Origin: a virus
DNA: 24,966 nt
Strand: one strand, 5' to 3'
Virus record (IMG/VR): IMGVR_UViG_3300033151_000312
Coordinates: 1-24,966 of that record
Both the position numbers and the translations under genes were made by a program. Below, piece by piece: positions 4,117-18,250 of the stretch. Within the stretch, counting starts at the first letter, position 1. Each line of letters opens with the position of its first letter. The notes under the pieces were generated by a model. That model was given only the letters and a program-made list of their open reading frames with translations, ran no database searches and was not told the origin of the DNA.

Positions 4117-4123
4117 ACGTAGA

Positions 4124-4675
4124 CTATCGGTCAATCACACTAGACAGATTGAAAATTTCCAGATCCCTGTCGTAGAACTCCAATACCTTCTGACGTCCTA
4201 CGTCGCCAAGCATTTCTACAAACGTATCAGCCTCTACACTATCCGAAGCATTCCATTTACCCAATGCCACCGGAATTTGCAGATAATCAGTGAGTCTGTC
4301 TCCTAGACGGTCATCCAAAGAGAACACCTTGTCAGCCCATGCATGGCTCCACCATTGAGGTTCTGTGTGATGGTCAACAACTCGTGGGCCTTCTTTGATC
4401 TCGTTCTGCAAGAACTCGTGTAGGTCGTTGATGAATCCAGGGATTCTACGGTCCAAGCCATGCACTACATGCCAATACCACAGCACGCCAGAGACATAGC
4501 GCGAGAAAGGCTCACGCACGACAACGAAGCCTTCTGCCTCCACAGGACGCACACTGCACAGATCGAAACGCGACCATCCCTGCTCTATGAAAAACCGAGA
4601 GAGAGATGTGCTAGCACATTTGTACACCTCCGTGTACAAGTGGCTGCCCGAATACCCAGACAGTCGACGCTTCAT
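4124..4675 (-). CDS. Sulfotransferase-like protein inside the head operon
   Basis: A 183-residue protein with the signature pieces of PAPS-dependent sulfotransferases of the family-2 (carbohydrate) type. EVYKCASTSLSRFF at residues 16-29 fits the 5'-phosphosulfate loop, with Lys19 where the family has its catalytic Lys. VVVREPFSRYVSG at 51-63 fits the 3'-phosphate-binding strand/helix, and DHHTEPQWW (101-109) matches the His/Pro-Gln element seen downstream in this family. The C-terminal FYDRDLEIFNL also fits. It is shorter than cellular enzymes and has no membrane anchor, so it would act in the cytoplasm. It overlaps the portal stop (TAATG) and is followed by the protease gene after 7 bases, so it is co-translated with head proteins. 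Substrate unknown; virion protein or its glycan is possible. Confidence 0.75.
   Translation of the reverse strand: MKRRLSGYSGSHLYTEVYKCASTSLSRFFIEQGWSRFDLCSVRPVEAEGFVVVREPFSRYVSGVLWYWHVVHGLDRRIPGFINDLHEFLQNEIKEGPRVVDHHTEPQWWSHAWADKVFSLDDRLGDRLTDYLQIPVALGKWNASDSVEADTFVEMLGDVGRQKVLEFYDRDLEIFNLSSVIDR
4606..4638. repeat. Two adjacent perfect inverted repeats inside the sulfotransferase gene
   Basis: Positions 4606-4619 are a 14-bp perfect palindrome (ATGTGCTAGCACAT). Positions 4621-4638 are a second perfect inverted repeat with 7-bp arms (TGTACAC/GTGTACA) around CTCC. Both lie in the codons for residues 13-23, the phosphosulfate-binding loop. On the minus strand the second repeat also contains GGAGG, 7 bases before an out-of-frame ATG-TGC-TAG. 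Confidence 0.7.
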
Positions 4676-6342
4676 TACGCCTCTTTAGCAGGACCTCGAC
4701 CCGGACCAGAATCAGTAGACTTGGTGTTAGTGCCACCGCCACCCGCAGATCCACCACCGGCTCGACCGGCACCCTTCGGAGATGCCCCGCCTCCAGGCTG
4801 ACCACCTCCAGGCTGACCGGGCTGACCGCTGAACGGTACTTCGGTAGGCTTGAAGATGTCGTCGTAGCCGTCCTCTTCCTCACGTTCACGCTTACGTGCC
4901 TCGTCTTCCTGGTTGATGTCAACCTCGCCGAGTAGCGTCTCACGGGAAATGTCGCCACGGTCACGAAGATCAAGCATGAACGTAGTCATGTTCGGATCGA
5001 ACTCTAGAGAGATACGACGTGGGATGTAATTCAGGACAGGCTTGTCTTCAAGCTTGGATTCATTCATCTTGTAGGCTCTCGTGAAAATTTCGTCTTCCAT
5101 TGTGCGGCCAATGTTCTGCCGACGAGATTCCATTCCCTTCGCAACAACACGAGCCAACTTGAGCGAATCGTCGCCCTTGGCACCAGCAGCGAAGTTACCA
5201 GTCATGAACATCTGATACAAACGGGCGGTGATACGAGCATCAATACCGTTGTACCTCGTAGGATCAAGCGTCTGATCCGTCTTCGGGGTGATGATCTCAA
5301 CCTCGATACGGTGATCGCCAACAATGACAGGAACACGAGCAGCGCCACGGACCTGACCGGCCAGAGCGTTGACTTCATTCTGCTTTGCAGGCATTGTGTC
5401 AGAACCCTTTTTGACAAGCACGATGAAGTTGGTGCCACCAATCAGGTGAGCACGGTCCATCTGTCGAAGCTGATGCTTCAAGTCGAGAAGCTCGAACACA
5501 GACTTCATACGGACCTCAGCGAAACGCATGTAATCAGGACGTGTCGAGGTGATACGGAACACACGGTTTGGGTTGAGCCAGAACATGTTGCTGGTGTCTG
5601 CGCCAGAGTAGTTCGTTATTAGACTCGCCTCTGCACGATCCGGTTCATATCGAGAGTCAATTAGCTGACCAACAGCCAAATCGCTTGTGTTCTGGCCAGC
5701 CAGCACCGAGTCGATAGCAGCACCTTCGTTCCTGTCAACAACATACGCTAGACGTTCTTGTCCAAACAAGAAATTCCCGACAGGAACAACCTTGAGAGGA
5801 TCAAGAATCGTCATAGCTGTCGGAACGCGCATGTTCTTGAATTCCTTGCGCTTCTTGTTGCCGTCTGCTGTCTTGCCACGAACACGATAACTCTTCGTAC
5901 CCCAAAGCACACCAACATAACATTGCGACACTATGAATAGCTCACGCCAAATCTCGCGGAGTCGTTCTTCCAGGTTCAGATCATCTGACACCTGATTCCA
6001 GAAATCTTCTTCGTCGCGGTCTTCGCAGTCGATGCGTGCCTTGTTGAAAGCCAACGCTTCTGTCGTCTCAAGAATGCCGGACACAACATCATCAGTCTGA
6101 GCAGCGTCGAACGCTACTGCGAACTGTTCGAAAACTTTGTCTGGGGTAACGAACCTATCTCGTTCAAAAATTCCACCCGCACGCCCTCCACCGCTAATCT
6201 GCTGACCCCAGCGGGTCAGAGCAGCAACCTCAGGATGCTGTTCATTAAGAGCGGAGAAGACATCATCTGACGAAACGTCCGTGTCGTTCAAAACGACTGT
6301 CCCGATATCCGGGTCCACCATGATTTCTGATCCTGCGGTCAT
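4675..6342 (-). CDS. Portal protein
   Basis: A 555-residue protein in the canonical place between large terminase and the protease/scaffold. The body has portal-like features: a long helical region, a beta segment with RVPTAMTILDPLKVVPVGN (about 177-195), a segment SVFELLDLKHQLRQMDRAHLIGGTNFIVLVKKG (about 285-317) that fits the portal wing and stem, and YNGIDARITARLYQMFMTG (about 371-389) that fits the clip/crown approach. The last 50 residues are a Gly/Pro-rich tail (GQPGQPGGGQPGGG...) encoded by a 15-bp tandem repeat. The start overlaps the previous stop (ATGA). Twelve copies would form the vertex ring through which DNA is packaged. Identification is by length, order and sequence character; high confidence. 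Confidence 0.88.
   Translation of the reverse strand: MTAGSEIMVDPDIGTVVLNDTDVSSDDVFSALNEQHPEVAALTRWGQQISGGGRAGGIFERDRFVTPDKVFEQFAVAFDAAQTDDVVSGILETTEALAFNKARIDCEDRDEEDFWNQVSDDLNLEERLREIWRELFIVSQCYVGVLWGTKSYRVRGKTADGNKKRKEFKNMRVPTAMTILDPLKVVPVGNFLFGQERLAYVVDRNEGAAIDSVLAGQNTSDLAVGQLIDSRYEPDRAEASLITNYSGADTSNMFWLNPNRVFRITSTRPDYMRFAEVRMKSVFELLDLKHQLRQMDRAHLIGGTNFIVLVKKGSDTMPAKQNEVNALAGQVRGAARVPVIVGDHRIEVEIITPKTDQTLDPTRYNGIDARITARLYQMFMTGNFAAGAKGDDSLKLARVVAKGMESRRQNIGRTMEDEIFTRAYKMNESKLEDKPVLNYIPRRISLEFDPNMTTFMLDLRDRGDISRETLLGEVDINQEDEARKREREEEDGYDDIFKPTEVPFSGQPGQPGGGQPGGGASPKGAGRAGGGSAGGGGTNTKSTDSGPGRGPAKEA
4791..4820 (-). repeat. 15-bp tandem repeat in the portal gene tail
   Basis: The unit at 4791-4805 repeats at 4806-4820 with the last two bases changed. 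It encodes GQPGG twice in the low-complexity C-terminal tail of the portal, a site where copy number could drift between relatives. Confidence 0.7.
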
Positions 6343-6680: not shown

Positions 6681-7104
6681 TACTGTACCTCAATCGGAGT
6701 TGTCCGTCGCTATTTTGAGTATCTAGGTCTTCCTTGACACTTGAGAGGAAATCGTCTAGACCGTGAATGCTGAACAGTGAATCAACTGCCTCATCGAAGA
6801 CAACCACCATTTTGTCGTTGACCTCAACTGCCAAATACCATTGAGACATGCCATCCCGACTTTGCAAATCGGGATCGTCTGTTGTGATGCGAGCGACTGT
6901 TGACATCAGACAGACGTCGCACAACGTGATACGATGCGTGTTGAAGTCAATCCAGCGAACCTCAGAAGTAGTGGAACAAGCAACGCAAGAGAGATCATTC
7001 GAGTATGATCGACCTGACCGGCTCCCAGCTTTCTTCTTTCGTGATCGCTTCGATCGAGTGTTGTGCCCACCCAAGCGCCGCCATTCTGCTCGCATCCAAC
7101 GCAT
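6670..7104 (-). CDS. Basic zinc-ribbon protein overlapping the terminase 3' end
   Basis: A 144-residue protein with a strongly basic N-terminus (TRSKRSRKKKAGSRSGRS, residues 16-33) followed by two CxxC pairs at Cys40/Cys43 and Cys62/Cys65 that could bind one zinc, then an acidic C-terminal half (VVFDEAVDSLFSIHGLDDFLSSVKEDLD). This suggests a nucleic-acid-binding zinc ribbon, perhaps a packaging or nuclease partner, but no nuclease motif is visible. The start is supported by AAGGGG at 7117-7112, 7 bases before the ATG, which places the first 110 bases inside the terminase gene in another frame; the basic N-terminus is therefore written over the terminase C-terminal codons. It overlaps the next gene by 11 bases. 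Confidence 0.72.
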   Translation of the reverse strand: MRWMRAEWRRLGGHNTRSKRSRKKKAGSRSGRSYSNDLSCVACSTTSEVRWIDFNTHRITLCDVCLMSTVARITTDDPDLQSRDGMSQWYLAVEVNDKMVVVFDEAVDSLFSIHGLDDFLSSVKEDLDTQNSDGQLRLRYSNGA

Positions 7105-8629
7105 GGAAATTCCCCTTGGAGAAGACTTTTCTTCGTCCGTACATGTCCATTACGGACTTGTCGTAAGTGTAGGTCTGCCCCTGATATTCGCCAATCAGTT
7201 CAGTGTCCCAAGGAAGCCTGAGCCTCTTGGTGTCCACCAGCCATCGAAGTTTGTCAGAACTGTATTCTAGCACGTTCTTATACATGCCTGCATCCTTAAC
7301 TGCGTCACCTCTGAACTCATCGACCTCAATAGTTGAGTCGAAGTCCACCAGAATTTTCTCCGAGAAACCGTAACCTTTGATCGCATCAAGGTACGATCGC
7401 AATTGTGGGTTCGCTGCCGCCGCAGCCTGAATGTCTTGAAACAGCGGAAGACCGACGCCAGTCTTATCCATAGCAAACGCCTTCGGCTTGTAGAAGTCAA
7501 TCAGCCACAAAATCGCAGCCACCTGATGCGGGTTGCTAATGCGCTCAAGTTGAATGCGCGCCACCAGTTTCAACACGGTATCGGTTTTGTTGATCTTCTT
7601 GTCCACAACCTCTGCAAAAACAAGGATCTCGGATGGGTCGTTGGTGTAACCAACATCCATACCGATCCACACCGTCTTGTAATTCAGATGTGAAGCCGGG
7701 AAATCTAACAACGGCAAGATGTCGTCGTCCATCTCCAACACAAGCTCGTTTGTGATGCGCAGCTTCGTGTACTCGTGGTTATTGTACGGCTCTTCAAGGT
7801 TGTCGTCCACGCACTCCATCAGACGATGCAGAACGAACAGTGGGTTAGTAGCATCACCATGCAAACCTAGTACGTTTCGTCTATAATCAGGGTGGTCCCT
7901 AGACCCGTACTCGCTGATCTTGTCTTGTCGTTCCTCATCGGTCCACGTCGGACGATGCATACCGGTGTACCGGTTGATCGACCAGCCAGAATCGGCCTGC
8001 GTGAACTTGTAGAAGTAGTCACGCACGCCACGGGTCACACCATGAGCGCGCCAACGGGCACCATCAAAACCTCGTTTCAACGTCTCAAGAATCTCAATCC
8101 AACCCTTGTCAGGGAAATCCTGAGCCTCGTCCATTTCCAACCAGATAGGGTGAATGCCCTTCATGCCTTTGCCGTCCCGCTGAGGGATACGGCCCATGAT
8201 ACGAGCACCGGACTGGAAGTTCATATGGAACGGGCGATGCTTCACGCCTGTACGTCCCTTCACCAGCATCTCACGCCCAAGTCGAGTGTTAGCGAAAGAA
8301 GTTTCTACAACATCCGTGACAGCATCCAAATGGACACCCTCAGGAGCAGTGATAACCATTTCGCCACCCGGATGAATAAACGGAAAAGCGAACGCTCGCG
8401 CCTTGATAGATAGAGACTTGCCGATCGAACGACCTGCCTGGTCTATCTGCTTCGGAGCCGGGTTCCTCCACCACGACCATTGGAAGGCCCAACAACGGAA
8501 AATCATGTCATCCCTGTCCATGTCGGTCCACGAGAACTCGGCATGATCCAGACCCGACTCGTCCTGAAGAATACAGAACAGGTAAAGCTCTTCTTCCGTC
8601 AGGTCCTCAAGTACGCCGCTGTCACTCAT
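6995..8629 (-). CDS. terL: Terminase large subunit (packaging ATPase-nuclease)
   Basis: A 544-residue protein with a complete ATPase-nuclease layout. QAGRSIGKSLS at residues 64-74 is a variant Walker A loop, WLEMDEAQDF (163-172) is the Walker B with catalytic Glu168, and the nuclease has three acidic sites in order: GMDVGYTNDPSE (Asp325), FAMDKTGVG (Asp388) and FHALDASRMA (Asp512). It cuts and pumps DNA through the portal encoded two genes downstream. The ATG overlaps the upstream stop (ATGA). The last 110 bases also encode the start of the basic zinc-ribbon protein. Length and motifs are normal; no truncation. Confidence 0.95.
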   Translation of the reverse strand: MSDSGVLEDLTEEELYLFCILQDESGLDHAEFSWTDMDRDDMIFRCWAFQWSWWRNPAPKQIDQAGRSIGKSLSIKARAFAFPFIHPGGEMVITAPEGVHLDAVTDVVETSFANTRLGREMLVKGRTGVKHRPFHMNFQSGARIMGRIPQRDGKGMKGIHPIWLEMDEAQDFPDKGWIEILETLKRGFDGARWRAHGVTRGVRDYFYKFTQADSGWSINRYTGMHRPTWTDEERQDKISEYGSRDHPDYRRNVLGLHGDATNPLFVLHRLMECVDDNLEEPYNNHEYTKLRITNELVLEMDDDILPLLDFPASHLNYKTVWIGMDVGYTNDPSEILVFAEVVDKKINKTDTVLKLVARIQLERISNPHQVAAILWLIDFYKPKAFAMDKTGVGLPLFQDIQAAAAANPQLRSYLDAIKGYGFSEKILVDFDSTIEVDEFRGDAVKDAGMYKNVLEYSSDKLRWLVDTKRLRLPWDTELIGEYQGQTYTYDKSVMDMYGRRKVFSKGNFHALDASRMAALGWAQHSIEAITKEESWEPVRSIILE

Positions 8630-9174
8630 TTCAATGCTCTTAGCAGCTTCTCATATTGAACAACCGTAGACTCTGGCGACCGCGAAAACAACTCGACCAT
8701 CGAAGCCACAACAAAAGCAACCCGGTACTCCATGAAATATGACGGGTCCTTGCGAAGACCCTTAGAAATAGCTTCGATCTGTTCCACGGTCGGATGAGCT
8801 TTTCCTTCAACAAGACGATGGATGGTTGACTTGGGCAGACCCGAAGAGTGAGCCAAGCTCCTAATCGACTTGTCTGCACGAGCTAACTCAAGTGCTGAAA
8901 CGAAAGGCAGAACCGTGTAGTCTTCACCCCTGATCTGACGTAGCTTCAATTCTGCACGTTCGATGTTAAGGGCGGGTCGCTTGCCTGGACGTCCCGGCTC
9001 GGCCTGGTCAATCTTCAATACATCGTTCACGATGCGGCCCATAATCGCGGGATCGTCTCGGAAGACCTTGTTCCAATCCAAGGTTTCTACGGTAGGGAAA
9101 GTTTTCTTGATGGCCTTGAAGCGTTCTTGCCAAGGCATCTTTTCATCGAAGACAGAGAGATCGTAGTCCATCAT
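8626..9174 (-). CDS. HTH DNA-binding protein, candidate terminase small subunit
   Basis: A 182-residue protein directly upstream of large terminase, coupled by ATGA. Residues 103-123 (SIRSLAHSSGLPKSTIHRLVEG) form an XRE-like helix-turn-helix followed by AHPTVEQIEAISKGL, the third and fourth helices of that fold. A small AT-hook-like GRPGKRP occurs at 61-67, linking a helical N-terminal region. The C-terminal helices (EYRVAFVVASMVELF onward) could serve oligomerisation. A sequence-specific DNA binder next to TerL is most simply the packaging-site recognition subunit; a transcriptional regulator is the alternative. The start could be either Met of the MM pair at 9174 or 9171. Confidence 0.75.
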   Translation of the reverse strand: MMDYDLSVFDEKMPWQERFKAIKKTFPTVETLDWNKVFRDDPAIMGRIVNDVLKIDQAEPGRPGKRPALNIERAELKLRQIRGEDYTVLPFVSALELARADKSIRSLAHSSGLPKSTIHRLVEGKAHPTVEQIEAISKGLRKDPSYFMEYRVAFVVASMVELFSRSPESTVVQYEKLLRALK

Positions 9175-9175
9175 G

Positions 9176-9799
9176 TCACATCGCTCGTATCCACATCGTC
9201 TGTTCTTTACGGAACTCGATGTCGATAGAATCGAACTCTGGAATGGCTATCTCTTTGATCCATTCCATGATGTCCTCAACCGCTACGCTGTTCTCCTTTC
9301 GTTCGATCGGAGTGCAGTTCTCATGGAATTCCATCAGCGCCTTGAGATCCATGAACAACTCGATCGTCTTGGCGTGCTGATTGTTTCGCATGATCCCGAA
9401 AGCCTTGGCGCGCACATTGAGGTTATCGAGATACACCTGGGTTGATTCGCCCTTGTCTTTCTCACGGGTAGCCTTGTCCATACCAAGCGACTTCTTCACA
9501 AGACGAACTTCGCTAGAGAAATCTTTGATGGACTTGTTCAAGGCAAGCGGGTCAACCTGCAATCCTTGATAGTCTGTCTCGTTCGTGAGCCATGACGACC
9601 ACCGATAGATCAGCAGTTCCATCATCAAAACTCTATCCAAATCCTGCACGTCGGAGATGTTGATGAACTGGTTATCTGCCATGTAGCGATTAGCTACGTC
9701 TTCGTAGTAGTCTCGTTCGGCCTCTACCAAAACATGGAACAAGGCCCCCGAAGGAGCCTCGACCGGAATGTTGCCTTCTTCTTCAAGATAGTCTGTCAT
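9176..9799 (-). CDS. Packaging-region protein, alternative terminase small-subunit candidate
   Basis: A 207-residue helical, charged protein, first gene of the packaging/head operon. It starts MTDYLEEEGNIPVEAPSG and contains VEAERDYYEDVANRYMADN, DLDRVLMMELLIYRWSSWL and GMDKATREKDKGESTQVYL. From memory this type sits near terminase in many actinophages and is sometimes annotated as terminase small subunit or left hypothetical. No HTH is clear, so together with the next gene it may form a bipartite small subunit. I chose the ATG at 9799 because a TACAAT -10 box lies 8 bases before it; the upstream TTG at 9829 lies within the promoter and inverted repeat. The mRNA is therefore predicted to be leaderless or nearly so. 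Confidence 0.72.
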   Translation of the reverse strand: MTDYLEEEGNIPVEAPSGALFHVLVEAERDYYEDVANRYMADNQFINISDVQDLDRVLMMELLIYRWSSWLTNETDYQGLQVDPLALNKSIKDFSSEVRLVKKSLGMDKATREKDKGESTQVYLDNLNVRAKAFGIMRNNQHAKTIELFMDLKALMEFHENCTPIERKENSVAVEDIMEWIKEIAIPEFDSIDIEFRKEQTMWIRAM

Positions 9800-9807
9800 T
9801 AAGAAGT

Positions 9808-9816
9808 ATTGTAGCA
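9808..9816 (-). promoter_or_regulatory. Extended -10 promoter (TGC-TACAAT) of the packaging/head operon
   Basis: The minus strand reads TGCTACAAT at 9816-9808, 8 bases before the ATG at 9799, so transcription should begin at or one or two bases before the start codon. The -35 position (about 9836-9831) falls inside the perfect inverted repeat at 9823-9839. The operon downstream runs without an evident terminator to the capsid gene. Confidence 0.65.
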
Positions 9817-9822
9817 CACACT

Positions 9823-9839
9823 GTCCCAAGTTTTGGGAC
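9823..9839. promoter_or_regulatory. Perfect inverted repeat on the -35 region: candidate operator
   Basis: GTCCCAA and TTGGGAC (7-bp arms, 3-base spacer) lie where the -35 contact of the packaging operon promoter would be. As RNA it would also form a hairpin after the glycan operon, but the downstream minus strand (AGTGTGTGC) is not T-rich, so a protein-binding site fits at least as well as a terminator. Confidence 0.5.
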
Positions 9840-9843
9840 GTAC

Positions 9844-9866
9844 TAGCTCTTATCGACTAAGAACTA
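9844..9866 (-). terminator. Hairpin at the end of the glycan operon
   Basis: A 9-bp stem (58-66 with 44-52 of the 9800s, one G-U pair in RNA) with loop GTCGA starts exactly at the TAG stop codon of the last sulfotransferase. It lacks a following T run, so it may be a 3'-end stabiliser or a factor-dependent terminator together with the adjacent repeat. Confidence 0.45.
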
Positions 9867-10535
9867 CAAAGTTTGAGCAAATTCGTAAAGCTTAGTATCC
9901 CACACTGTGAGTTTGCGGATCGTGTCCTGAGCATGTTCGCTGAGATTCTCGATGTAGGTTCTCGGCATGTTGATATGCTCAGGACCTGTCCACGGAACTT
10001 CCAACACATTGAAGAAATCAGCGAGGTCGTCGTCCAGTGTACTGGTCTCACCAACCCAATCCAATCCTGCCAACACTTCGCAAGCGTTGTCGAACTGCTC
10101 ACTGATCGGCATGTCGTCCTTGTAGAAGTTGCCTCCCAACTGACGTACCATGCGGTCACGGAACCCAACCTTGATAGAAGGTGTCAAAGAGTCAGCCAAC
10201 ATGTACTCGACTGGATTCATACCTACCGCATTCATCTGGTTCTGCCGAAGGTTGAGTAGAGAAAATACTCGCTCATACGGCTCACGCAGAACAGTGAAAC
10301 GCACACGACCTTCTTCGTGACGAGTCAGAAGGCTTACCGGTTCGTGACTCGAAACAAAGGGACCATCGTACTCCTTCCAAGAGCCAGGGGCATCAGGTCG
10401 ATCGTCTGAAGCGTGCCCGTCTTGTCGTTGACCCTTATCTGTGTAAGCAGCATCACGGCCAATGTAGTTCCATACCTTCGTAGCCAACATTTGGCCACCA
10501 GTACGAGGGATGTGGTAGAACAATGCATCTTTCAT
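9864..10535 (-). CDS. Sulfotransferase, carbohydrate (family 2) type
   Basis: A 223-residue soluble protein. FYHIPRTGGQML at residues 6-17 is the classical phosphosulfate loop of family-2 sulfotransferases (H-I/V-P-K/R-T-G-G), though with Arg rather than the more common Lys, and FTVLREPYERVFSLLN (80-95) is the 3'-phosphate-binding site (LREP..R). SSHEP at 62-66 resembles the family's histidine element. It would move sulfate from PAPS to a sugar hydroxyl or similar acceptor. It is the last gene of the glycan operon and overlaps the preceding methyltransferase (ATGA), so the two are made together. The acceptor is unknown. Confidence 0.82.
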   Translation of the reverse strand: MKDALFYHIPRTGGQMLATKVWNYIGRDAAYTDKGQRQDGHASDDRPDAPGSWKEYDGPFVSSHEPVSLLTRHEEGRVRFTVLREPYERVFSLLNLRQNQMNAVGMNPVEYMLADSLTPSIKVGFRDRMVRQLGGNFYKDDMPISEQFDNACEVLAGLDWVGETSTLDDDLADFFNVLEVPWTGPEHINMPRTYIENLSEHAQDTIRKLTVWDTKLYEFAQTL

Positions 10536-11218
10536 GATTCCAACTCTAGCACATCTGGAACAGGCTCAGGGTCAGGAACTCCACTAACTACAAACACACC
10601 TTCGTGCTCACGATACAAACTGAACGTCCGAACCCAGTCACCCGCTTCCTTGTCAATCGTGAAACCGCGGCTCTTTAGCGTGTCTGTCCACCAGGCACGA
10701 GAATGCATATTGATATGTGTTGGATCTGTTTCCCAACCTTCATTTTCTAGTACGCAGATAGCAAAGAAGCCAACGCCACCTTCAAGAGGCCACAAGTTTC
10801 GAAGGTTAGACAATGCCACATCCGTAGTAAGCGGACGAATGTGCTCCAGAGTCTCAAGACACGTTACAATCTCAAATTGTCGCCATCCATAGAAAGGTCC
10901 GACATGTGGCAAAGCGAAATCCCAAGTGCTGACATTGCGTCGAACGCTTTTGTCTGCGTGAGTGATTGCATGGTGACTGATATCGAGTCCAAAGCTTTCG
11001 ATACCTCTCCGTCGCACATGTTTAACGAGGTATCCCATAGCGCAACCGATGTCAATAAGTCGCGTCCCGCTGCTGCGATCCTGTCCCATCTCATCGTAAC
11101 CAAACAATTCCTTGACAATGTGTGCTGTGTCTTCCCAGACAGGAGAATCGGTGTAACCCTTGCCGTCATCGTAAGTTTCCCAGTAGTTTCGACCATAAGC
11201 CGTGTCCTCCGTTCTCAT
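10532..11218 (-). CDS. SAM-dependent methyltransferase (class I)
   Basis: A 228-residue protein with motif I LIDIGCAMGYLVKHV at 54-68, the ribose-binding acidic residue in FGLDIS (Asp79), and motif IV-like IVTCLETLEHI (about 117-127), followed by a conserved-looking C-terminal half with HINMHSRAWW. The N-terminus AYGRNYWETYDDG resembles small-molecule or sugar methyltransferases associated with polysaccharide loci. It is probably an O-methyltransferase acting on a sugar, by context. It starts within the preceding methyltransferase stop (ATGA) and stops within the following sulfotransferase start, so three modifying enzymes are tightly coupled. Confidence 0.85.
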   Translation of the reverse strand: MRTEDTAYGRNYWETYDDGKGYTDSPVWEDTAHIVKELFGYDEMGQDRSSGTRLIDIGCAMGYLVKHVRRRGIESFGLDISHHAITHADKSVRRNVSTWDFALPHVGPFYGWRQFEIVTCLETLEHIRPLTTDVALSNLRNLWPLEGGVGFFAICVLENEGWETDPTHINMHSRAWWTDTLKSRGFTIDKEAGDWVRTFSLYREHEGVFVVSGVPDPEPVPDVLELES

Positions 11219-11802
11219 GTTCGTTTCCGGCCGATGGCTTGCAAATACCCCGCTTCATATCCACGACGCATACTGATCACGTCAAAACCACGTTGATCGA
11301 ACTCTGCTTCGAATATGCGCGGTGTGAAACCGTTGTAATGGAAATCGAATTCGGTCGCTTGACCACCATAGAACAACTGCTGGATACCACGATCCATTTC
11401 GAGAGTGTCGATCTGTAGAACCTGCTCGCAGCAGGCCAAGAAATCAGGGACCTCGATCCAGAGGAAACCACCCGGCTTGACAATACGTGCCCACTCGTTC
11501 AACACTCGTGGATACTGCTTGCGAGCTACATGCTCAAGCATCTCCTGACTATACAGAAGGTCTGCCGTGTTGGAGGTCATTTTGATCTGGTGAGCTTCAG
11601 CGACAATATCAACCGGGTAAGTCTTGTTCGTGTCCCAATCGCGCAATGGTGCTTTGTCGATGTCCACGTGGGTCCACTCGGGACCAAGATAGGTGCGTGT
11701 GCCAACAACGACCTGCTTGCCGCCTGCCACCTCTGCGAGAACGGCCCCGGCTACCCAAGCTACCGCTTCTCTGCCCTCTTCGATCTCAGCTTCCGTAACC
11801 AT
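11215..11802 (-). CDS. Methyltransferase-like protein with an unusual SAM motif
   Basis: A 195-residue protein. The second half is typical of Methyltransf_11-type enzymes: ADLLYSQEMLEHV (80-92) and WARIVKPGGFLWIEVPDF (104-121). The first half is atypical: where GxGxG is expected there is VVVGTRTYLGPEWTHVDID (31-49), which keeps a strand and an acidic end (Asp47/Asp49) but has few glycines. It resembles the predicted SAM-dependent methyltransferases that act in sugar or lipid modification. It may be active with a modified loop or be a non-catalytic partner of the neighbouring methyltransferase. AGGAGA overlapping the upstream stop codon supports the ATG. Confidence 0.75.
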   Translation of the reverse strand: MVTEAEIEEGREAVAWVAGAVLAEVAGGKQVVVGTRTYLGPEWTHVDIDKAPLRDWDTNKTYPVDIVAEAHQIKMTSNTADLLYSQEMLEHVARKQYPRVLNEWARIVKPGGFLWIEVPDFLACCEQVLQIDTLEMDRGIQQLFYGGQATEFDFHYNGFTPRIFEAEFDQRGFDVISMRRGYEAGYLQAIGRKRT

Positions 11803-11809
11803 GTTTCTC

Positions 11810-12631
11810 CTAGTATCCGTAAGTGTCGATAAGCTTCTTTAGCTCGTCCGTCAAAGGGATGGTTTTCAAATCCGCTCGCCGTGCCTCAGCAGCGTAATCG
11901 CTGCCCATCACCACGCCTCTCTTGAGTTTTAGAGCACCGCCCGCATCATAACTCTCAGCGATGTCGTTGCTATCCAACTCTAGATGATCACAAACCCGAC
12001 GCAACTCCCGCATCGGATCTTCGCAAACATCTTCGTAACGTACAAAGAGTCTATCAGGAATCGCAAGCGCCTGCTGCTCCAACCGTACATAGTAGTCCAC
12101 CAGGAAGTCACGGTCGCCGCCTTCCCAAGCCAATCCAGCCATCGAAGCGATGCAATGAATCGGGTCGCGAACCAAATGGATATATTTGGCGTCAGGGAAA
12201 TGTTGTTCGATCCACGGCCTCATCGCTGGGTCTGTGATCGATGCCGGTTTCTTGTCTCCCGCCCACACCAATTCGACATCGAGCTTTTCAGGGTATGCGT
12301 CCTGCCGATTAAGGATACCGTGATCTTTAACATATAGAAGATCCTTGAAAAAGTTCTCTCGTATTTCTCCTACAAGATCATCGTCTCCAAGGAACCCGCC
12401 TTCTAATCTACTAGAACGACTTTTGGTTCTCAAATTCGCTGGGTCGTCATCTGGATGAGCACCAATCCCTCTGAGAGGTACATCTAAACCCTTGTTTCCA
12501 TCAGCCCCGTTGAACAGAAACCACAACGTGTCTGCCTCTGATGCCATGTAGATGTGAGGATGCAGGTTCAAGACATACGTCATCATCGTCGTACCGGAAC
12601 GCCGGTTGCCGACAAAAAATAGTGGCTTCAT
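11810..12631 (-). CDS. Sulfotransferase, family-3 / bacterial type
   Basis: A 273-residue protein with a clear PAPS-site pair: FFVGNRRSGTTMMTYVL at 5-21 (5'-phosphosulfate loop, G-x-x-R-S-G-T-T) and YIHLVRDPIHCIASM at 150-164 (3'-phosphate-binding, RDP...S). WAGDKKPAS (123-131) matches the GEKTP element of this family, and LFVRYEDVCEDPMRELRRVCDHL near the C-terminus matches the usual RYEDL..DP...L region. It is close to full length for the family. It is clearly different from the family-2 enzymes at 9864 and 4124, so the phage carries at least two lineages. It lies 5 bases after the coiled-coil gene, with no strong ribosome site. The acceptor is unknown. Confidence 0.88.
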   Translation of the reverse strand: MKPLFFVGNRRSGTTMMTYVLNLHPHIYMASEADTLWFLFNGADGNKGLDVPLRGIGAHPDDDPANLRTKSRSSRLEGGFLGDDDLVGEIRENFFKDLLYVKDHGILNRQDAYPEKLDVELVWAGDKKPASITDPAMRPWIEQHFPDAKYIHLVRDPIHCIASMAGLAWEGGDRDFLVDYYVRLEQQALAIPDRLFVRYEDVCEDPMRELRRVCDHLELDSNDIAESYDAGGALKLKRGVVMGSDYAAEARRADLKTIPLTDELKKLIDTYGY

Positions 12632-12636
12632 TAAGC

Positions 12637-12900
12637 TCAGCTATCAAACCTGATTACCGTCTGCGACCTGCCGTCCAGAACAATCAAATGCCCGGTAGGG
12701 AACCTAGACAAATACTCGTCAATAGTCGCCATCTTCGCTACAGCAACACTTGCAGCATCCACCTCTGCTTCCAGTCCAACAATCTTGGCTTCAAGCTGTT
12801 GAATCTTGGCTCTCAGTTTACTCTCAGAACTCGGCAGTGCCGAAGGTCGATCCGCGTTTCCCTGTGCGGTTCTCTTCGATCCTATTTGTCTATCACTCAT
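12637..12900 (-). CDS. Small coiled-coil protein in the glycan operon
   Basis: An 87-residue protein not recognised as a family member. A basic, polar N-terminus (MSDRQIGSKRTAQG) leads to a coiled coil at about 26-58 (SKLRAKIQQLEAKIVGLEAEV), followed by a compact C-terminal part (YLSRFPTGHLIVLDGRSQTVIRF) that may form a beta hairpin. The ATG overlaps the glycosyltransferase stop (TGATG) so it is coupled to it. It may oligomerise or bridge enzymes; that is a guess. Confidence 0.72.
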   Translation of the reverse strand: MSDRQIGSKRTAQGNADRPSALPSSESKLRAKIQQLEAKIVGLEAEVDAASVAVAKMATIDEYLSRFPTGHLIVLDGRSQTVIRFDS

Positions 12901-13757
12901 CAGATAATTCTCCCAGTATACAGATTCCTGTATCTAGGAACCTTGATCAAATCCATTGTTACTCCATCTACATCGACTGTTTCCGGTGTCTTGTTTAGAT
13001 TCGGGAACTTCTGTAGGTAGTATTCTTCCAAGTACAGAGCGTTCACCGGCCAGTCAGCGAAACGAATCACATTCGGAGAATGGTACGTCATGTGCTTCCC
13101 GCCGAAATACGCAACCCACTTGTTGACCCAGTTGATGATGCCCTCGTTGATGCGCGCCTGAGATTCGGGATTCATAGACGATGTGGCATCATGCTTCACA
13201 TGGACATCAGAAAGGGCAGCAATCTTCCAACCGTCAAGTCTGAGCCTAGTCTGAAAGTCGACTTCTTCCTGATGGCCCAAGTCTTCATCGAACGGACCAA
13301 CATCAATCCAACGTTGACGGTTCAGCATCCAACAGAAACCGATACCCCACAGAACCTCTGTGTAATGAGTGCGTGGAATCGGATAATTGCCGCCGTTAGG
13401 GAACACCATCGCTAGCTCATGAAAGCTACCAATCTTCTCCATCATCAGCTTGTCCCAACCGTGGGTAGAGACATAGGCATCATTGTCGAAATACGCTACG
13501 AACGTGGTCTCTGCAAGCTCTATGAACTTGTTGACAGCGCCAGGGTAACCAGTGTTCTCTTCCAGCATGACAGGCACGATGCGCTTGTTGTGTGCTGCCA
13601 TTTCTTTGATCGCAGCAGCGACCTTCAGATCGGGCGAAGCGTTGTCCACGATAAACAGACGGTAGTCCGATACCGTATTGTTCTCGATGTACTTGACTGT
13701 TTTGAGTAGCTTCTGTGGGCTGCCCCACGACGCAATTCCGATATCTAGTTCGCTCAT
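12900..13757 (-). CDS. Family-2 (GT-A) glycosyltransferase
   Basis: A 285-residue soluble enzyme with the GT-A order: LDIGIASWGSP at the N-terminus, FIVDNASPD at 35-43 (nucleotide-sugar contact), MLEENTGYPGAVN at 64-76, the metal-binding DND in AYFDNDAYVS at 91-93, and a later GPFDEDLGHQEEVDF segment typical of the acceptor side of family-2 enzymes (the E/D before the base). It transfers a sugar from a nucleotide donor, possibly rhamnosyl-like, to an acceptor that cannot be read from sequence. The start is the ATG at 13757, overlapping the preceding stop (ATGA); a GTG at 13772 is less likely. Confidence 0.87.
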   Translation of the reverse strand: MSELDIGIASWGSPQKLLKTVKYIENNTVSDYRLFIVDNASPDLKVAAAIKEMAAHNKRIVPVMLEENTGYPGAVNKFIELAETTFVAYFDNDAYVSTHGWDKLMMEKIGSFHELAMVFPNGGNYPIPRTHYTEVLWGIGFCWMLNRQRWIDVGPFDEDLGHQEEVDFQTRLRLDGWKIAALSDVHVKHDATSSMNPESQARINEGIINWVNKWVAYFGGKHMTYHSPNVIRFADWPVNALYLEEYYLQKFPNLNKTPETVDVDGVTMDLIKVPRYRNLYTGRII

Positions 13758-15355
13758 GTCTTCTTCCACCATTCGGCTATCACGTGTTCAAATCCTAGGC
13801 TCTGCAAAAAGGTGTGCCATTGTTTCTCATACTTGTTGTTGATAGACAAATGCATCGGAATAGAATCACCATGCTCAGCGTCTCCAATAGCGAAAGCATT
13901 CTGTGCCATGAAGAACCCGTCAGGGACCAGCATGTCATACACGGCCTTTGCCCATTCGTCTACGTTGACAAGATGCTCAAAGAAGTCAAGAGCAACAACA
14001 CAATCCAAGTCTTCGGCTACGGGGGGAGTCCACGAATTAGTCAAGTTCACAGGAACCGATGTAGCGCAATTAAGAGCGATACGAAACTGAGCAAACTCTG
14101 CCGTTAGCGATCCTTCAAGATCGTGATAGGTAGGCTGTAAACCTGACTCGTAGCAGTCCATAGTCAAATCACCAATGCCATCACCCATGCACAACACATG
14201 CGGCTTGTTTTCGTTGATCAACCTAGCAGTAATGCCCTCACACATGCCGATGTAGTTGAATCCCACATCTAGATGATAGGCAGACAACTCCCAAATGTAC
14301 TTGTCTGTAACTTGATACCAGTCAAGCAGAGAACCATCATCTTTCACATCGGTATCATGGTCACGGAAATCCTGAGCCACATCATGATGGGCAGGATGAA
14401 AACCGCGCTCAAGCCGAGTCTTCGCTTCTGCCTGATCCATGTCGAAGAACAACGACAGTTCGTATGAACGACGGTTGATGTTGCGACCCTTGACTTCTTT
14501 CCAATCACTGAAAGCAATCTCAATTGCCTCATCCAAACGAACAGTGTACAATGACCCTCGTCCCCAAGTCGTATCAGCAGGACGACGAGCCAAACCCTTC
14601 GAAGAGAAATGATCATGAGACACGCCGACAAGTTCTGTATCCTTTCCGGCGATCGACCCGATCCGTGCAGCGCCCTGTGCAAGCTGGAACCGCGATACCT
14701 TCTCAGGCATACCAAGATGATAAATGCCGACGTTGCAATCTCTAGCAAATCCCCACAGGATCTCAGCAGCTTCCTGCGCCAACAATGGCGAGAAGAAATG
14801 ATCATCGACCTGAATCTGCTTGTCCCGATTGAACATGTCCTCAAGAGGATTCATGCGACCAAAGCCAGGAAACGGACGTGCGCCGATCACAAATGTGAGA
14901 CGAGCGATCGTCCAGTTCGTTCCGGTTTGCACAAGGTCCTCAGCGACGGCCTTCTGTTTGCCATACTCCGTGATAGGGTTCACGGTGGAATCAGCCGAGT
15001 ACGGCCCATCCTCTCCAGAAAACACACCCTGGGTACTGCCCTGAACTAGATGGGCGTCATTGGCGTCACACCAGTTGACCAAGAACAAAGGCAACGCTCC
15101 GTTGATGTTCTCGTATGCTGAGGGGTCCTTCTCAACCACGTCAACGTTATTCTGCCCTGCAAGGTTCACGATGGCATCAGGCTGTGCCTCGTTCAAGAAA
15201 TCACCGAGTGCCCAGAAATCTTCACAGTCCAAGGATATATAGCCCTTGAGCGGAGGACAGTTGCGAACCACGAACGTGGCCTCTACATCGTCTGGCTTGT
15301 TCACGTACATGTGCTGACCAACGATACCGCTAGCCCCTAGAACAACAACTCTCAT
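13754..15355 (-). CDS. Fusion of RmlD-like sugar reductase/epimerase and methyltransferase
   Basis: A 533-residue two-domain enzyme. Residues 1-290 are an extended SDR of the dTDP-4-dehydrorhamnose-reductase (RmlD) type: GASGIVGQ at 7-14 binds NAD(P)H, IVNLAGQNNVDVVEKDP follows at 62-78, VQGSTQGVFSG at 104-114 carries the Ser/Thr of the triad, and the catalytic Tyr-x3-Lys is Tyr131/Lys135. Residues about 340-533 are a class I methyltransferase with HVLCMGDGIGDLTMDC at 386-401 and CVVALDFFEHL at 452-462, then VPDGFFMAQN as the late strand. One chain may thus make a deoxysugar nucleotide and methylate it. Its start overlaps the previous stop (TAATG). No frameshift or internal stop separates the parts. 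Substrates are inferred. Confidence 0.87.
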   Translation of the reverse strand: MRVVVLGASGIVGQHMYVNKPDDVEATFVVRNCPPLKGYISLDCEDFWALGDFLNEAQPDAIVNLAGQNNVDVVEKDPSAYENINGALPLFLVNWCDANDAHLVQGSTQGVFSGEDGPYSADSTVNPITEYGKQKAVAEDLVQTGTNWTIARLTFVIGARPFPGFGRMNPLEDMFNRDKQIQVDDHFFSPLLAQEAAEILWGFARDCNVGIYHLGMPEKVSRFQLAQGAARIGSIAGKDTELVGVSHDHFSSKGLARRPADTTWGRGSLYTVRLDEAIEIAFSDWKEVKGRNINRRSYELSLFFDMDQAEAKTRLERGFHPAHHDVAQDFRDHDTDVKDDGSLLDWYQVTDKYIWELSAYHLDVGFNYIGMCEGITARLINENKPHVLCMGDGIGDLTMDCYESGLQPTYHDLEGSLTAEFAQFRIALNCATSVPVNLTNSWTPPVAEDLDCVVALDFFEHLVNVDEWAKAVYDMLVPDGFFMAQNAFAIGDAEHGDSIPMHLSINNKYEKQWHTFLQSLGFEHVIAEWWKKT

Positions 15356-16104
15356 TAGTCAAATCTCCATGTCGGCGTCGGACCACCCCAAGGCACCAAT
15401 GTTGGCTGCGTGATGATAGACTGAATGTGTTTGTTATTGTGTCCGTGATCGAACAACTCTGTATATCGAGCGTGCTTCTCTTCATGATCCTTTGGGTCTG
15501 CGTAACCCAGATGCAGCATGGTCAACTCAAGATTCTGTGTCGACACATGCCCTCTCGAAACGTAGGTAGGTTCAGATCCACAACCCATCGCCTTATTGCT
15601 CCACTCTGCGTTCTGTTGATATCTGAACAGGCGAGGTCCACGGATAGTATCCCACAGTCCATCCGTCCGCATCAGCAAAGTGTCACGCTTCTTCGTCCCA
15701 AAGATTTCAGGAAACGGAAGAACAACTCCAACCTTGCCGTGCTTATCTGCATACGCTGTAGCTTGTTCAAGCTTCTGTCTCACATCGGAGAAATCAGGCT
15801 CAGTGCAAACGAGAAATTCGTCAGCGTCAAACGACAGAATCCAATCGCCATCGTCTGGCAAAATCGTCTGTTCGAACTGCTTCCACGCTGCATGACGGAA
15901 CTGTCCTTCGTGTTCTAGCCATGACGGCACATCATCAGGACGCACCACAACCTTGCCGTACTCGCTGGCGACAGCAACGGACTCGTCGTCCGACTGATCA
16001 TCCCACACAAACACTTCATCAAGAAACGGCACCATGTGTCGAAGACAAGCTTCCAAATACCGATCAGCTTCGTTTTTGATTACGATAGATCCAAATATAG
16101 CCAT
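15355..16104 (-). CDS. GT-A-type glycosyltransferase
   Basis: A 249-residue enzyme. MAIFGSIVIKNEADRYLEACL is the opening of the 'KNE' subgroup of family-2 glycosyltransferases, VFVWDDQSDDES (31-42) contacts the nucleotide and SFDADEFL at 91-98 provides the metal-binding DAD. The C-terminal part has KAMGCGSEPTYVSRG and HLGYAD, typical of that subgroup. GAGGA overlapping the upstream stop, 4 bases before the ATG at 16104, fixes the start; the earlier ATG at 16149 lies inside the preceding gene. Acceptor and donor unknown. Confidence 0.83.
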   Translation of the reverse strand: MAIFGSIVIKNEADRYLEACLRHMVPFLDEVFVWDDQSDDESVAVASEYGKVVVRPDDVPSWLEHEGQFRHAAWKQFEQTILPDDGDWILSFDADEFLVCTEPDFSDVRQKLEQATAYADKHGKVGVVLPFPEIFGTKKRDTLLMRTDGLWDTIRGPRLFRYQQNAEWSNKAMGCGSEPTYVSRGHVSTQNLELTMLHLGYADPKDHEEKHARYTELFDHGHNNKHIQSIITQPTLVPWGGPTPTWRFD

Positions 16105-16111
16105 GCTGTCC

Positions 16112-16924
16112 TCAGTCGTGGGCGATGTTGTGATGATCACAGGCGGCACGGAACATCACACGAGACGCCCCCATTTGTTGATCGGCCCACCCGCCCTTCG
16201 GGGAAGCCTTGTGCCAACGATGAACCATCTGAGAAGTACCAAGATACACACACTTGTAGCCGTGTGCCTGCAAATGGTATGAGTACCATGTCTCTTCGTA
16301 ATAGTGGGTCGTGGGCAAGAAAGGACCACGGGCATTTGGGTATAAATCTCGATAGAGTTCGCAGCTACTCAACTCGTCCCAAACGGAACGCTTCGTGAAG
16401 TAAGCAGAACCTGAAATAGTGACAGCATTCTCGTTGACATCCCGAAACTGATCATGCATTTTCTGGTGCCATCCACGATGCTTCGGAGCTTCAAGCGTGC
16501 CAAAGATTCCGGCGTGCGTTACTTCGTTGTTATCTCCAGTTTGCAGAGGACCAACCGCTCCCCAAGTCGGGTTGTCCATCAAAGCGTGATAACACGTATC
16601 AATGGAACCAGGCAAAAATCGTGTGTCAGCATTGAGAATTGCTAACGTCTCGCGACGGGCGATGCCGCCGATTACGTTTGCTGCACCCGAGTAGTAAAGG
16701 TTCTCGCTGAACGGGAAAATCATCACCTTGCCGGGGATGTGCGGACGGATGCCTTCGATGGCTTTTTCGTCAGCTTCAGTCACGTCATTGCAGACGATGT
16801 AAAGCGTCGATTCTACCTCAGGGAAATTCTCGATGTACGACTCGCAGAAACCAACAAGATCATCAGGTGTCTTGTAGTTCACCACGATCAAATCAATTCC
16901 AGGTTCATACATAGGCACAACCAT
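16112..16924 (-). CDS. Family-2 glycosyltransferase, rhamnosyltransferase-like
   Basis: A 270-residue enzyme with IDLIVVNYKTPDDL at 10-23, FSENLYYSGAANVIGGIA at 72-89 (the N.GYs.A.N element), the metal site LNADTRFLPGS at 97-107, and ISGSAYFTKRSVWDEL later in the sequence, the G.....R....VG-like acceptor segment of this family. HYYEETWYSYHLQAHGY fits the catalytic base region (EE/D). The start is the ATG at 16924, one base after the upstream stop; a frame extending to 17065 would read through that upstream gene and is rejected. An in-frame ATG at 16912 is an alternative. Confidence 0.85.
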   Translation of the reverse strand: MVVPMYEPGIDLIVVNYKTPDDLVGFCESYIENFPEVESTLYIVCNDVTEADEKAIEGIRPHIPGKVMIFPFSENLYYSGAANVIGGIARRETLAILNADTRFLPGSIDTCYHALMDNPTWGAVGPLQTGDNNEVTHAGIFGTLEAPKHRGWHQKMHDQFRDVNENAVTISGSAYFTKRSVWDELSSCELYRDLYPNARGPFLPTTHYYEETWYSYHLQAHGYKCVYLGTSQMVHRWHKASPKGGWADQQMGASRVMFRAACDHHNIAHD

Positions 16925-16925
16925 A

Positions 16926-17117
16926 TCACATCCACTCCCAGTTCGCTGGACCGTCCACGGCTTTCTCTCCAGTCTCTTTAATGTTGGTATCCCACATGTT
17001 CCAGTAAATATCTGAAGTACCAAAGTACACGAACACGGCGTGTCCAGCTTCATCTTGCCAGACATAGATTTCTAGGTCAGAAATCTCTTCCCACCAATGA
17101 TCTTCGAACTCTTCCAT
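16926..17117 (-). CDS. Acidic, tryptophan-rich 63-residue protein
   Basis: Not recognised. It has seven Trp in 63 residues (8, 9, 20, 39, 42, 60, 62), many Asp/Glu and few Lys/Arg. Strand-forming segments (LEIYVWQD, HAVFVYFG, DIYWNMWD) suggest a small three-stranded sheet with exposed aromatic residues, as in carbohydrate- or protein-binding mini-domains. It sits exactly between two glycosyltransferases with one-base gaps on both sides, so it is co-translated with them. It may be a subunit or adaptor of a glycosyltransferase; inference from position only. Confidence 0.72.
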   Translation of the reverse strand: MEEFEDHWWEEISDLEIYVWQDEAGHAVFVYFGTSDIYWNMWDTNIKETGEKAVDGPANWEWM

Positions 17118-17118
17118 C

Positions 17119-17856
17119 TCAATAGCCGCACCGGGGATCTTCCCTACCGTTGTGCGCTTCCGTCATAACATGCTTCGAAGCAATCGAGCCATCCCAACCG
17201 AGTTTCAACCCGGCCGCGTTTACCTCTATCGACCAACCGATGTCTTCACCGTAACGATTCGCTTTGTAGTCAACCTCGTAGGCGGCAGGTGTCATCAGCT
17301 TGATAGCCATGATGATATCAACCTGGAACACGCCTTCAGAATCAGACCTAAGAAACGCACTCTTATGACCCCTCTTGAGTTGACCGTAGCTCGGATGCTG
17401 TTTACCTGTAGCAGACAGATACGTCTTACCGCCTATCGCAGCCCACTCAGGATGCTCTTCCAAATGCTCGATCATGCCTTTGATCTGCTGAGGATGTATC
17501 TGGATGTCAGAGTCCAGACTCAGAAGGTAATCTGGTTTGTGTGCCCCGTCTCGCGCCTGACGAAGGAAAGCATTTCGAACAACGCACATCTCTTCGTAGC
17601 GGTCGGTGTTCCATATTCGCTTGTCTTCACGTGACGGTTCAGTCGTGAACGCCAGCCGTGTGTTTACTTCGTGCTTTCGACTCGCCACATGAATCGCATC
17701 AATCGTGGCTTCATCATCCTTTGGGACCACAAAGGTAAACGCGAAATTGTCTGTAGCGTTCCGTGCCGCCGGGACGGCGTGATCAAAATACGCTTCAACA
17801 GCCCACTCACGTGACCTGATCGGACATCCTATGAGCAGCTTCGGATTCTGCGACAT
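17119..17856 (-). CDS. GT-A-type glycosyltransferase
   Basis: A 245-residue enzyme starting MSQNPKLLIGCPIRSREWAV. The core has FTFVVPKDDEA (40-50), MCVVRNAFLRQARDG (90-104), YLLSLDSDIQIHPQ (110-123) with the metal-binding DSD at 115-117, and late GGKTYLS, YGEDIGWSIEVNAAGLKL (acidic base region, then helix). The layout suits the Anp1-like or family-2 branch that extends glycans. GGAG about 10 bases upstream supports the ATG, which makes it overlap the HNH nuclease by 50 bases. First of the four transferases to be translated. Confidence 0.82.
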   Translation of the reverse strand: MSQNPKLLIGCPIRSREWAVEAYFDHAVPAARNATDNFAFTFVVPKDDEATIDAIHVASRKHEVNTRLAFTTEPSREDKRIWNTDRYEEMCVVRNAFLRQARDGAHKPDYLLSLDSDIQIHPQQIKGMIEHLEEHPEWAAIGGKTYLSATGKQHPSYGQLKRGHKSAFLRSDSEGVFQVDIIMAIKLMTPAAYEVDYKANRYGEDIGWSIEVNAAGLKLGWDGSIASKHVMTEAHNGREDPRCGY

Positions 17857-18250
17857 CTAGCAACTCCTGTAGACGGTCGATCTCTGTATTCCAATCTGGG
17901 TCATACTTGTCGTCCACATTCTTGCGTAACTCTCGATAGATGTCAACTGTACCATGTCGACCGATGACAAACTCGGCGAAACCTAATGGGTCTAGTCCGA
18001 AACCGTAATGACAAGACCCGCACAGACACACAGCATTGCGGTCATCGGTAACGGTAGCCTTGTATTGACGAGAGATGATGTGAGCACACTGAATCGCAAC
18101 TTTGGTGACTTTCTTCGTTTTTGGATTCGTTCGCATCATTCCACGAACAAGACCACATTTGTCGCACGTGAAATCGGAACGTGTTCGGACCAGCAGCGAG
18201 TGTAGCTTGATAGCCTTTTTTTTAGCGCCCTTACCGTAGTTGACGCTCAC
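17807..18250 (-). CDS. HNH endonuclease
   Basis: A 147-residue protein with a zinc-HNH core: Cys29/Cys32 (FTCDKCG), CAHIISRQ with the catalytic-type His57, then DDRNAVCLCGSCHYGF with Asn72, Cys77/Cys80 and His81. It would cut DNA; in phages such genes are either free-standing homing nucleases or packaging nucleases. Here it sits away from the terminase, within the accessory operon, which favours a mobile, homing-type role. I place the start at the GTG 18250, which overlaps the previous stop (GTGA), because the longer frame to 18433 would lie in the upstream gene. Codons 10-12 include a run of eight A, a potential slippage site. Confidence 0.82.
   Translation of the reverse strand: MSVNYGKGAKKKAIKLHSLLVRTRSDFTCDKCGLVRGMMRTNPKTKKVTKVAIQCAHIISRQYKATVTDDRNAVCLCGSCHYGFGLDPLGFAEFVIGRHGTVDIYRELRKNVDDKYDPDWNTEIDRLQELLDVAESEAAHRMSDQVT

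Follow-up and report, generated by a model that had tools for sequence, protein, structure and literature searches.

A phage cassette of glycosyltransferase, methyltransferase and sulfotransferase genes beside terminase and head genes: a candidate pathway for virion glycan decoration

In the mycobacteriophages Che8, Corndog and Myrna, capsid and tail-tube proteins are glycosylated (Freeman et al. 2023, as cited in PMC12363180). The chlorovirus PBCV-1, with its A064R and A061L, has a virus-built methylated, rhamnose-capped N-glycan on its capsid (PMC9614988), and Moumouvirus australiensis carries, both predicted and unvalidated, a sulfotransferase and an adenosine 5'-phosphosulfate (APS) kinase in the cluster for its fibril glycans (PMC10117803). 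Sulfotransfer_3 genes of OM43 phages and of Synechococcus phage S-SRM01 were reported with a function which, according to their authors, 'remains unclear' (PMC10580990). Caudovirales GX15bay (MK557849) is a phage from a mangrove virome (PMC6460857). Here, a cassette of glycosyltransferase (GT), methyltransferase (MT), sugar-nucleotide reductase and sulfotransferase genes is described in IMG/VR virus record IMGVR_UViG_3300033151_000312. The window, i.e., the whole 24,966-base record, was treated as a fragment of a genome which may extend beyond it.

The locus is similar to the mycobacteriophage systems, as these are described, in phage-coded GTs, which there decorate virion proteins, and differs from what is described of them in having four GTs, an RmlD-type reductase, three MT domains and up to three sulfotransferases. 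A wider analogy to actinophages, drawn in the preliminary description of the locus, found no support, and the search for a host with the terminase large subunit (TerL) confirmed no relative in genome contigs. PBCV-1 has in common with the window the virus-coded GTs and MTs and a multi-domain fusion including an MT; however, it is a eukaryotic algal virus, its fusion is of the GT-GT-MT type whereas that of the window joins a reductase to an MT, and no sulfotransferase is mentioned in PMC9614988. In moumouvirus, a sulfotransferase also lies beside GTs, in a cluster with nucleotide-sugar enzymes predicted to serve virion fibrils, but this amoeba virus also codes for an APS kinase (ma457), which was not seen in the window. 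The OM43 and S-SRM01 phages likewise code for a PF13469 sulfotransferase; relative to what is reported of them, the PF13469 gene of the window is distinguished by its position in a GT/MT/RmlD cassette by the terminase. GX15bay resembles the window in its TerL (48.6% identity) and in having a GT/MT cassette ahead of its terminase genes; it gave no Sulfotransfer_3 or Sulfotransfer_2 match, and the part compared held no homologue of the RmlD-MT, GT4 or ST3 genes listed below. No paper joining a phage sulfotransferase with a glycosyltransferase and a tail fiber was found in the open-access literature, and phage virion sulfation appears to be undescribed so far.

The reading that we favour, with moderate confidence, is that soluble enzymes of this cassette make a methylated, sulfated 6-deoxyhexose-type glycan on the phage's own virion proteins. 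The genes concerned, in the order of transcription, are as follows.

17119–17856, minus strand: GT1, GT-A glycosyltransferase (PF00535, 4.5e-4, the weakest of the four GTs)
16112–17065 (start may be 16924), minus strand: GT2, GT-A glycosyltransferase (PF13632, 4.4e-7)
15355–16149 (start may be 16104), minus strand: GT3, GT-A glycosyltransferase (PF13704, 3.4e-11)
13754–15355, minus strand: RmlD-MT, RmlD-type sugar-nucleotide reductase fused to a C-terminal methyltransferase (PF04321, 6.5e-34; PF08242, 7e-4)
12900–13772, minus strand: GT4, GT-A glycosyltransferase, partner of RmlD-MT (PF00535, 3.4e-13)
12637–12900, minus strand: open reading frame (ORF) of 87 aa, coiled-coil-like, function unassigned (weak coiled-coil matches only)
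11810–12631, minus strand: ST3, 3'-phosphoadenosine 5'-phosphosulfate (PAPS) sulfotransferase (PF13469, 4.4e-21)
11215–11802, minus strand: MT_b, S-adenosylmethionine methyltransferase (PF08241, 1e-10)
10532–11218, minus strand: MT_a, S-adenosylmethionine methyltransferase (PF13489, 1.3e-11)
9864–10535, minus strand: ST2a, sulfotransferase-like, Sulfotransfer_2 type (PF03567, 0.081; phrog_3347 galactose-3-O-sulfotransferase, 0.0087)
4124–4675, minus strand: ST2b, third gene of sulfotransferase-like type, flanked by the portal-like and putative protease genes (PF03567, 8e-4)

The single polarity and tight spacing pointed out earlier were evident, all ORFs assigned to genes in the window being on the minus strand. 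Most junctions between cassette genes were overlaps of 1–38 nt or gaps of 5–7 nt, with 53 nt between GT1 and GT2 when the ORF start used here is taken. The 3' boundary lies 34 nt from the likely small terminase gene, in agreement with the proposed contact with the packaging/head operon, whereas the other boundary had to be corrected: the segment up to 18,250 is an HNH endonuclease gene and the cassette proper (9,864–17,856) stops at 17,856. Domain assignments first made without database searches were borne out by Pfam at E < 1e-3 for the four GTs, the RmlD-like reductase with its fused MT, the two further MTs and ST3, i.e., for all cassette genes except ST2a and the coiled-coil-like ORF. GT1 was additionally backed by a D[ST]D motif aligned in its homologues from 13 loci. 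No transmembrane segments were detected among the cassette proteins.

RmlD-MT and GT4 together form a conserved phage module, usually located near terminase, capsid or tail genes. Single-protein scans with ST3 or RmlD-MT gave no relatives, but alignment-based scans did. The scan with the RmlD-MT pair revealed RmlD-MT in 47 IMG/VR loci, with identity up to 52%; these are redundant contigs recovered via exact peptide seeds, and the locus counts are therefore neither independent nor complete. GT4 was encoded downstream of RmlD-MT in all 38 loci with enough downstream sequence, at a distance of at most 1 kb in 35. RmlD and MT were one fused gene in 18 loci and neighbouring ORFs in 29, and the module was often accompanied by MT_b, RmlC or a WxcM-like isomerase, with an MT_b homologue below 1e-40 following in 26 loci. 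The GT4 proteins fell into 11 clusters at 80% identity, one of which comprised 26 contigs. The neighbours in the loci inspected were terminase, head-tail connector, capsid, tail or fibre-like genes: the module lay 2.5–4.8 kb downstream of TerL in L105, L113 and L130, between the head-tail connector and the tape-measure gene in L097, and next to VanY-like and PA14 genes in L138, where RmlC (PF00908, 3.7e-41) and GT17 were also present. The RmlC gene of L138 supports a 6-deoxyhexose route. The L138 copies of the module MT and GT4 had no match at 1e-6 in 50,697 phage records, and no plasmid record covered ≥80% of RmlD-MT, the listed matches aligning to the RmlD part only. Within the large contigs L107–L138, up to 210 kb long, a group of 26 related phage contigs has RmlD, MT, GT4 and MT_b. 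As a tentative extension, the module may put a methylated deoxyhexose glycan on the virions of many uncultured phage groups, some of which, the phage of the window included, would add sulfate; we rate this as slightly short of an even chance.

RmlD reductases convert a 4-keto intermediate to dTDP-L-rhamnose. From the observed enzyme classes, gene order, co-occurrence and location, we infer a pathway together with its donor sugar, linkage, step order, sulfated position, virion acceptor and benefit. The whole pathway would be cytoplasmic and phage-encoded. GT1–GT3 and GT4 would build a short chain, with the RmlD domain reducing a dTDP-4-keto-6-deoxy sugar to a rhamnose-type donor added by GT4. 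O-methylation of the sugar or the chain would fall to the fused MT, MT_b and MT_a, and sulfation, with host PAPS as the donor, to ST3 and probably also to ST2a and ST2b. The likely acceptors are capsid or tail proteins that fold in the cytoplasm, and the outcome would be a charged, methylated coat which may benefit the phage by masking, adsorption or stability.

Regarding the sulfation step, the class assignment of ST3 is secure as judged from its sequence. It matched the PDB sulfotransferases 4gox and 4gbm (3.5e-6), and the 4gox alignment spans both the 5'-phosphosulfate-binding (5'-PSB) and 3'-phosphate-binding (3'-PB) regions of the Sulfotransfer fold. A bacterial relative is located next to GTs and an O-antigen ligase in a polysaccharide cluster of Parasedimentitalea, as would fit a glycan substrate. 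When ST3 was aligned with two bacterial relatives, the scan with this alignment led to six IMG/VR loci. Among these, L089 (80 kb) shares with the window RmlD-MT (36% identity end to end), GT4 (47%) and ST3 (34%), all downstream of tail-like genes; TerL of the window's lineage had no match in its 80 kb. L090 contains at 8284–13859, between terminase/portal and capsid genes, a sulfotransferase, several MTs, a GT and a sulfatase-fold gene. Among the RmlD-MT loci, ST3 was present in L089/L134 only. In L091 (7210–10816) and L094 (2125–3360), a Sulfotransfer_3 gene was paired with an APS kinase gene (PF01583, 1e-11 and 5e-9, respectively), which suggests a phage-coded PAPS supply; no APS kinase (PF01583) was detected in seven lineage records searched. 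L090 is a phage carrying a sulfotransferase as well as a sulfatase-like gene, L094 also has tail-sheath genes, and further genes of L091 are GT25 and a cytidylyltransferase-like one.

The preliminary description counted two sulfotransferases with PAPS-site motifs. Of these, ST3 stands, and a third gene, ST2b, which lies within the head operon and beyond the coordinates given there, had been missed; in ST2a the 5'-PSB- and 3'-PB-like motifs are present in order, with a weak profile score. The assignment of ST2a as a putative sulfotransferase rests mainly on these two motifs. In a set of 3,339 ORFs from related loci, both occurred in the ST2a homologue of L014 only, and shuffled sets yielded none; the motif pattern was composed after the sequence had been seen, and this count is therefore supportive only. 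The L014 protein is 38% identical and is likewise encoded upstream of the small terminase gene; it is the one ST2a relative in IMG/VR, and none was found in phages or plasmids. An AlphaFold model of ST2a built from two sequences was unusable (predicted local distance difference test, pLDDT, 37). ST2b gave a tblastn match (1e-7) to a sulfotransferase-annotated gene of Synechococcus phage S-SCSM2R, and its relatives comprised one IMG/VR locus and none in genome contigs. In a PDB search, the ST2b pair matched ribonucleotide reductases only, at chance level. In S-SCSM2R (L084, 208381–232755) the sulfotransferase-annotated gene is near psbA/psbD, and a GT and sugar-synthesis genes are within the same 24 kb. 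The likeliest of the alternatives, though itself rather unlikely, is a real glycan with ST2a and ST2b lacking activity or acting on different groups, and with ST3 as the only sulfating enzyme or sulfation being marginal. The weak profile scores, the failed ST2a model and its single lineage homologue fit such a situation, but the ordered PAPS-site motifs of ST2a and the match of ST2b to the annotated cyanophage gene do not.

The position of the cassette was examined in relatives of the lineage obtained by a TerL profile scan of IMG/VR, which gave 80 loci. The genes surrounding the cassette are listed below, with the names portal, protease and capsid derived from gene order and from conservation among lineage members rather than from function-assigned database matches.

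9176–9829, minus strand: likely small terminase subunit, 34 nt downstream of ST2a
8626–9174, minus strand: ORF containing a helix-turn-helix (HTH)
6995–8629, minus strand: TerL, the lineage marker (phrog_2, 1.6e-14)
4675–6342, minus strand: portal-like gene
2662–4134, minus strand: putative protease gene
2055–2642, minus strand: conserved ORF
1085–2041, minus strand: putative major capsid protein
17807–18250/18433, minus strand: HNH endonuclease gene, outside the glycan set
23109–24839, minus strand: ribonucleotide reductase gene (phrog_367, 3.7e-110), upstream of the cassette

Along the minus strand, from 5' to 3', come the ribonucleotide reductase gene, small ORFs, the HNH gene, GT1, GT2, GT3, RmlD-MT, GT4, the coiled-coil-like ORF, ST3, MT_b, MT_a, ST2a, the likely small terminase, the HTH-containing ORF, the large terminase, two small ORFs, the portal-like gene, ST2b, the putative protease, the conserved ORF and the putative major capsid gene. 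The ORF at 9176–9829 is conserved ahead of TerL and was detected in 69 related loci. Its AlphaFold model is helical (pLDDT 90), and the top Foldseek matches in BFVD and PDB were small terminases (prob 0.99, E 0.05–0.1).

As a trait of the lineage, GT1-GT2-GT3 precedes the terminase genes, and GX15bay and many uncultured relatives share it. All three genes preceded the terminase in L053, L077, L009 and L015, and GT genes occupied the same position in GX15bay, these four loci, L049, L078 and L013. Local searches found GT2 homologues in 15 loci, with the GX15bay protein 42% identical over 98%, and GT3 homologues in 26, of which 10 had the DxD motif; distant GT3 relatives (L008, L050, L056 and others) had no DxD and were not counted as GTs. 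MT_a homologues were found in L013, L015 and L018. Variable genes in the relatives encoded rhamnosyl O-methyltransferase/CmcI, FkbM methyltransferase, UDP-glucose dehydrogenase, GT11, a TOD1/MUCI70-type GT and others. The ribonucleotide reductase gene ahead of GT1–GT3 was also present in L053 and L077. Gene order in the window and its relatives thus associates phage-coded GT genes with virion genes, and we infer from the placement of the module or cassette beside such genes in several lineages that virion proteins are the likeliest acceptor.

The same enzymes could remodel a host surface glycan, such as the lipopolysaccharide O-antigen or the capsule, and thereby block superinfection or alter adsorption. 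GT2-family enzymes are common builders of surface polysaccharides, and the ST3 relative in the Parasedimentitalea cluster points in the same direction. However, neither GtrA nor Bac_transf (PF02397) was found in 28 relatives and the cassette has no membrane segments, which speaks against a surface glycan role of the GtrABC-type or polyprenyl-linked kind, and the position beside terminase and head genes recurs in several lineages; we consider host remodelling unlikely. For serotype conversion of the GtrABC type, a GtrA flippase was absent from the 28 relatives and a membrane-anchored GtrB from the cassette. A small-molecule product or an auxiliary metabolic set, unrelated to the virion or cell surface, is improbable. 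PAPS sulfotransferases of the ST3 class also accept small molecules, and the PDB matches of ST3 are polyketide-synthase sulfotransferases, but several GTs co-occur with RmlD-MT across many phages and the placement by virion genes is conserved. Hypermodification of phage DNA bases by the GTs and sulfotransferases is very improbable: phage GTs can glucosylate hydroxymethylcytosine DNA in T-even phages (PMC9614988), but the thymidylate synthase family (PF00303, including the dCMP hydroxymethylase type) was absent from 28 relatives, which disfavours T-even-type base hydroxymethylation, other modification routes being outside this test and the window itself perhaps being a fragment, and the RmlD donor step and three MTs better fit a glycan.

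Virion decoration has to be set against several observations. Analysis of the window yielded no acceptor protein, glycan or sulfate, and adjacency to virion genes does not equal a target. The window, possibly a fragment, showed no RmlA, RmlB, RmlC or APS kinase. The RmlD domain scored 111 bits against the cut-off of 224 for the NCBIfam equivalog TIGR01214, so the sugar may not be rhamnose. ST2a and ST2b had profile scores below cut-off, and few members of the lineage carry a sulfotransferase: of 50 records, none matched PF13469, and one, L014, gave a weak PF03567 match. Finally, the 47 RmlD-MT loci are non-independent, with 26 in the single 80% cluster. On balance, the claim of a cassette for building, methylating and sulfating a glycan was strengthened by the comparative data, and the virion remains the best, albeit indirect, reading of its target.

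Phages may therefore coat their particles or their hosts with unsuspected sugars. Phage sulfotransferases have been on record with an unclear function (PMC10580990); in the present locus one gains a testable pathway, as it travels with RmlD-MT and a glycosyltransferase beside packaging/head genes. If virions are sulfated, a charged glycan coat would join the phage surface repertoire and adsorption, immune recognition and host range would be affected. With the module in 47 contigs and at least 11 clusters, and its MT and GT4 unmatched in the phage records, a glycan system common among uncultured phages may have been overlooked.

The portal-like and putative protease genes, between which ST2b is located, directly adjoin in 41 of 64 relatives. 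This slot is occupied by a GT2-family gene in L082 and by a fibronectin type III protein in L018 (10720–11130; PF00041, 8e-9), and ORFs resembling the latter by appearance were noticed in the same gap in L027, L029, L031 and L038.

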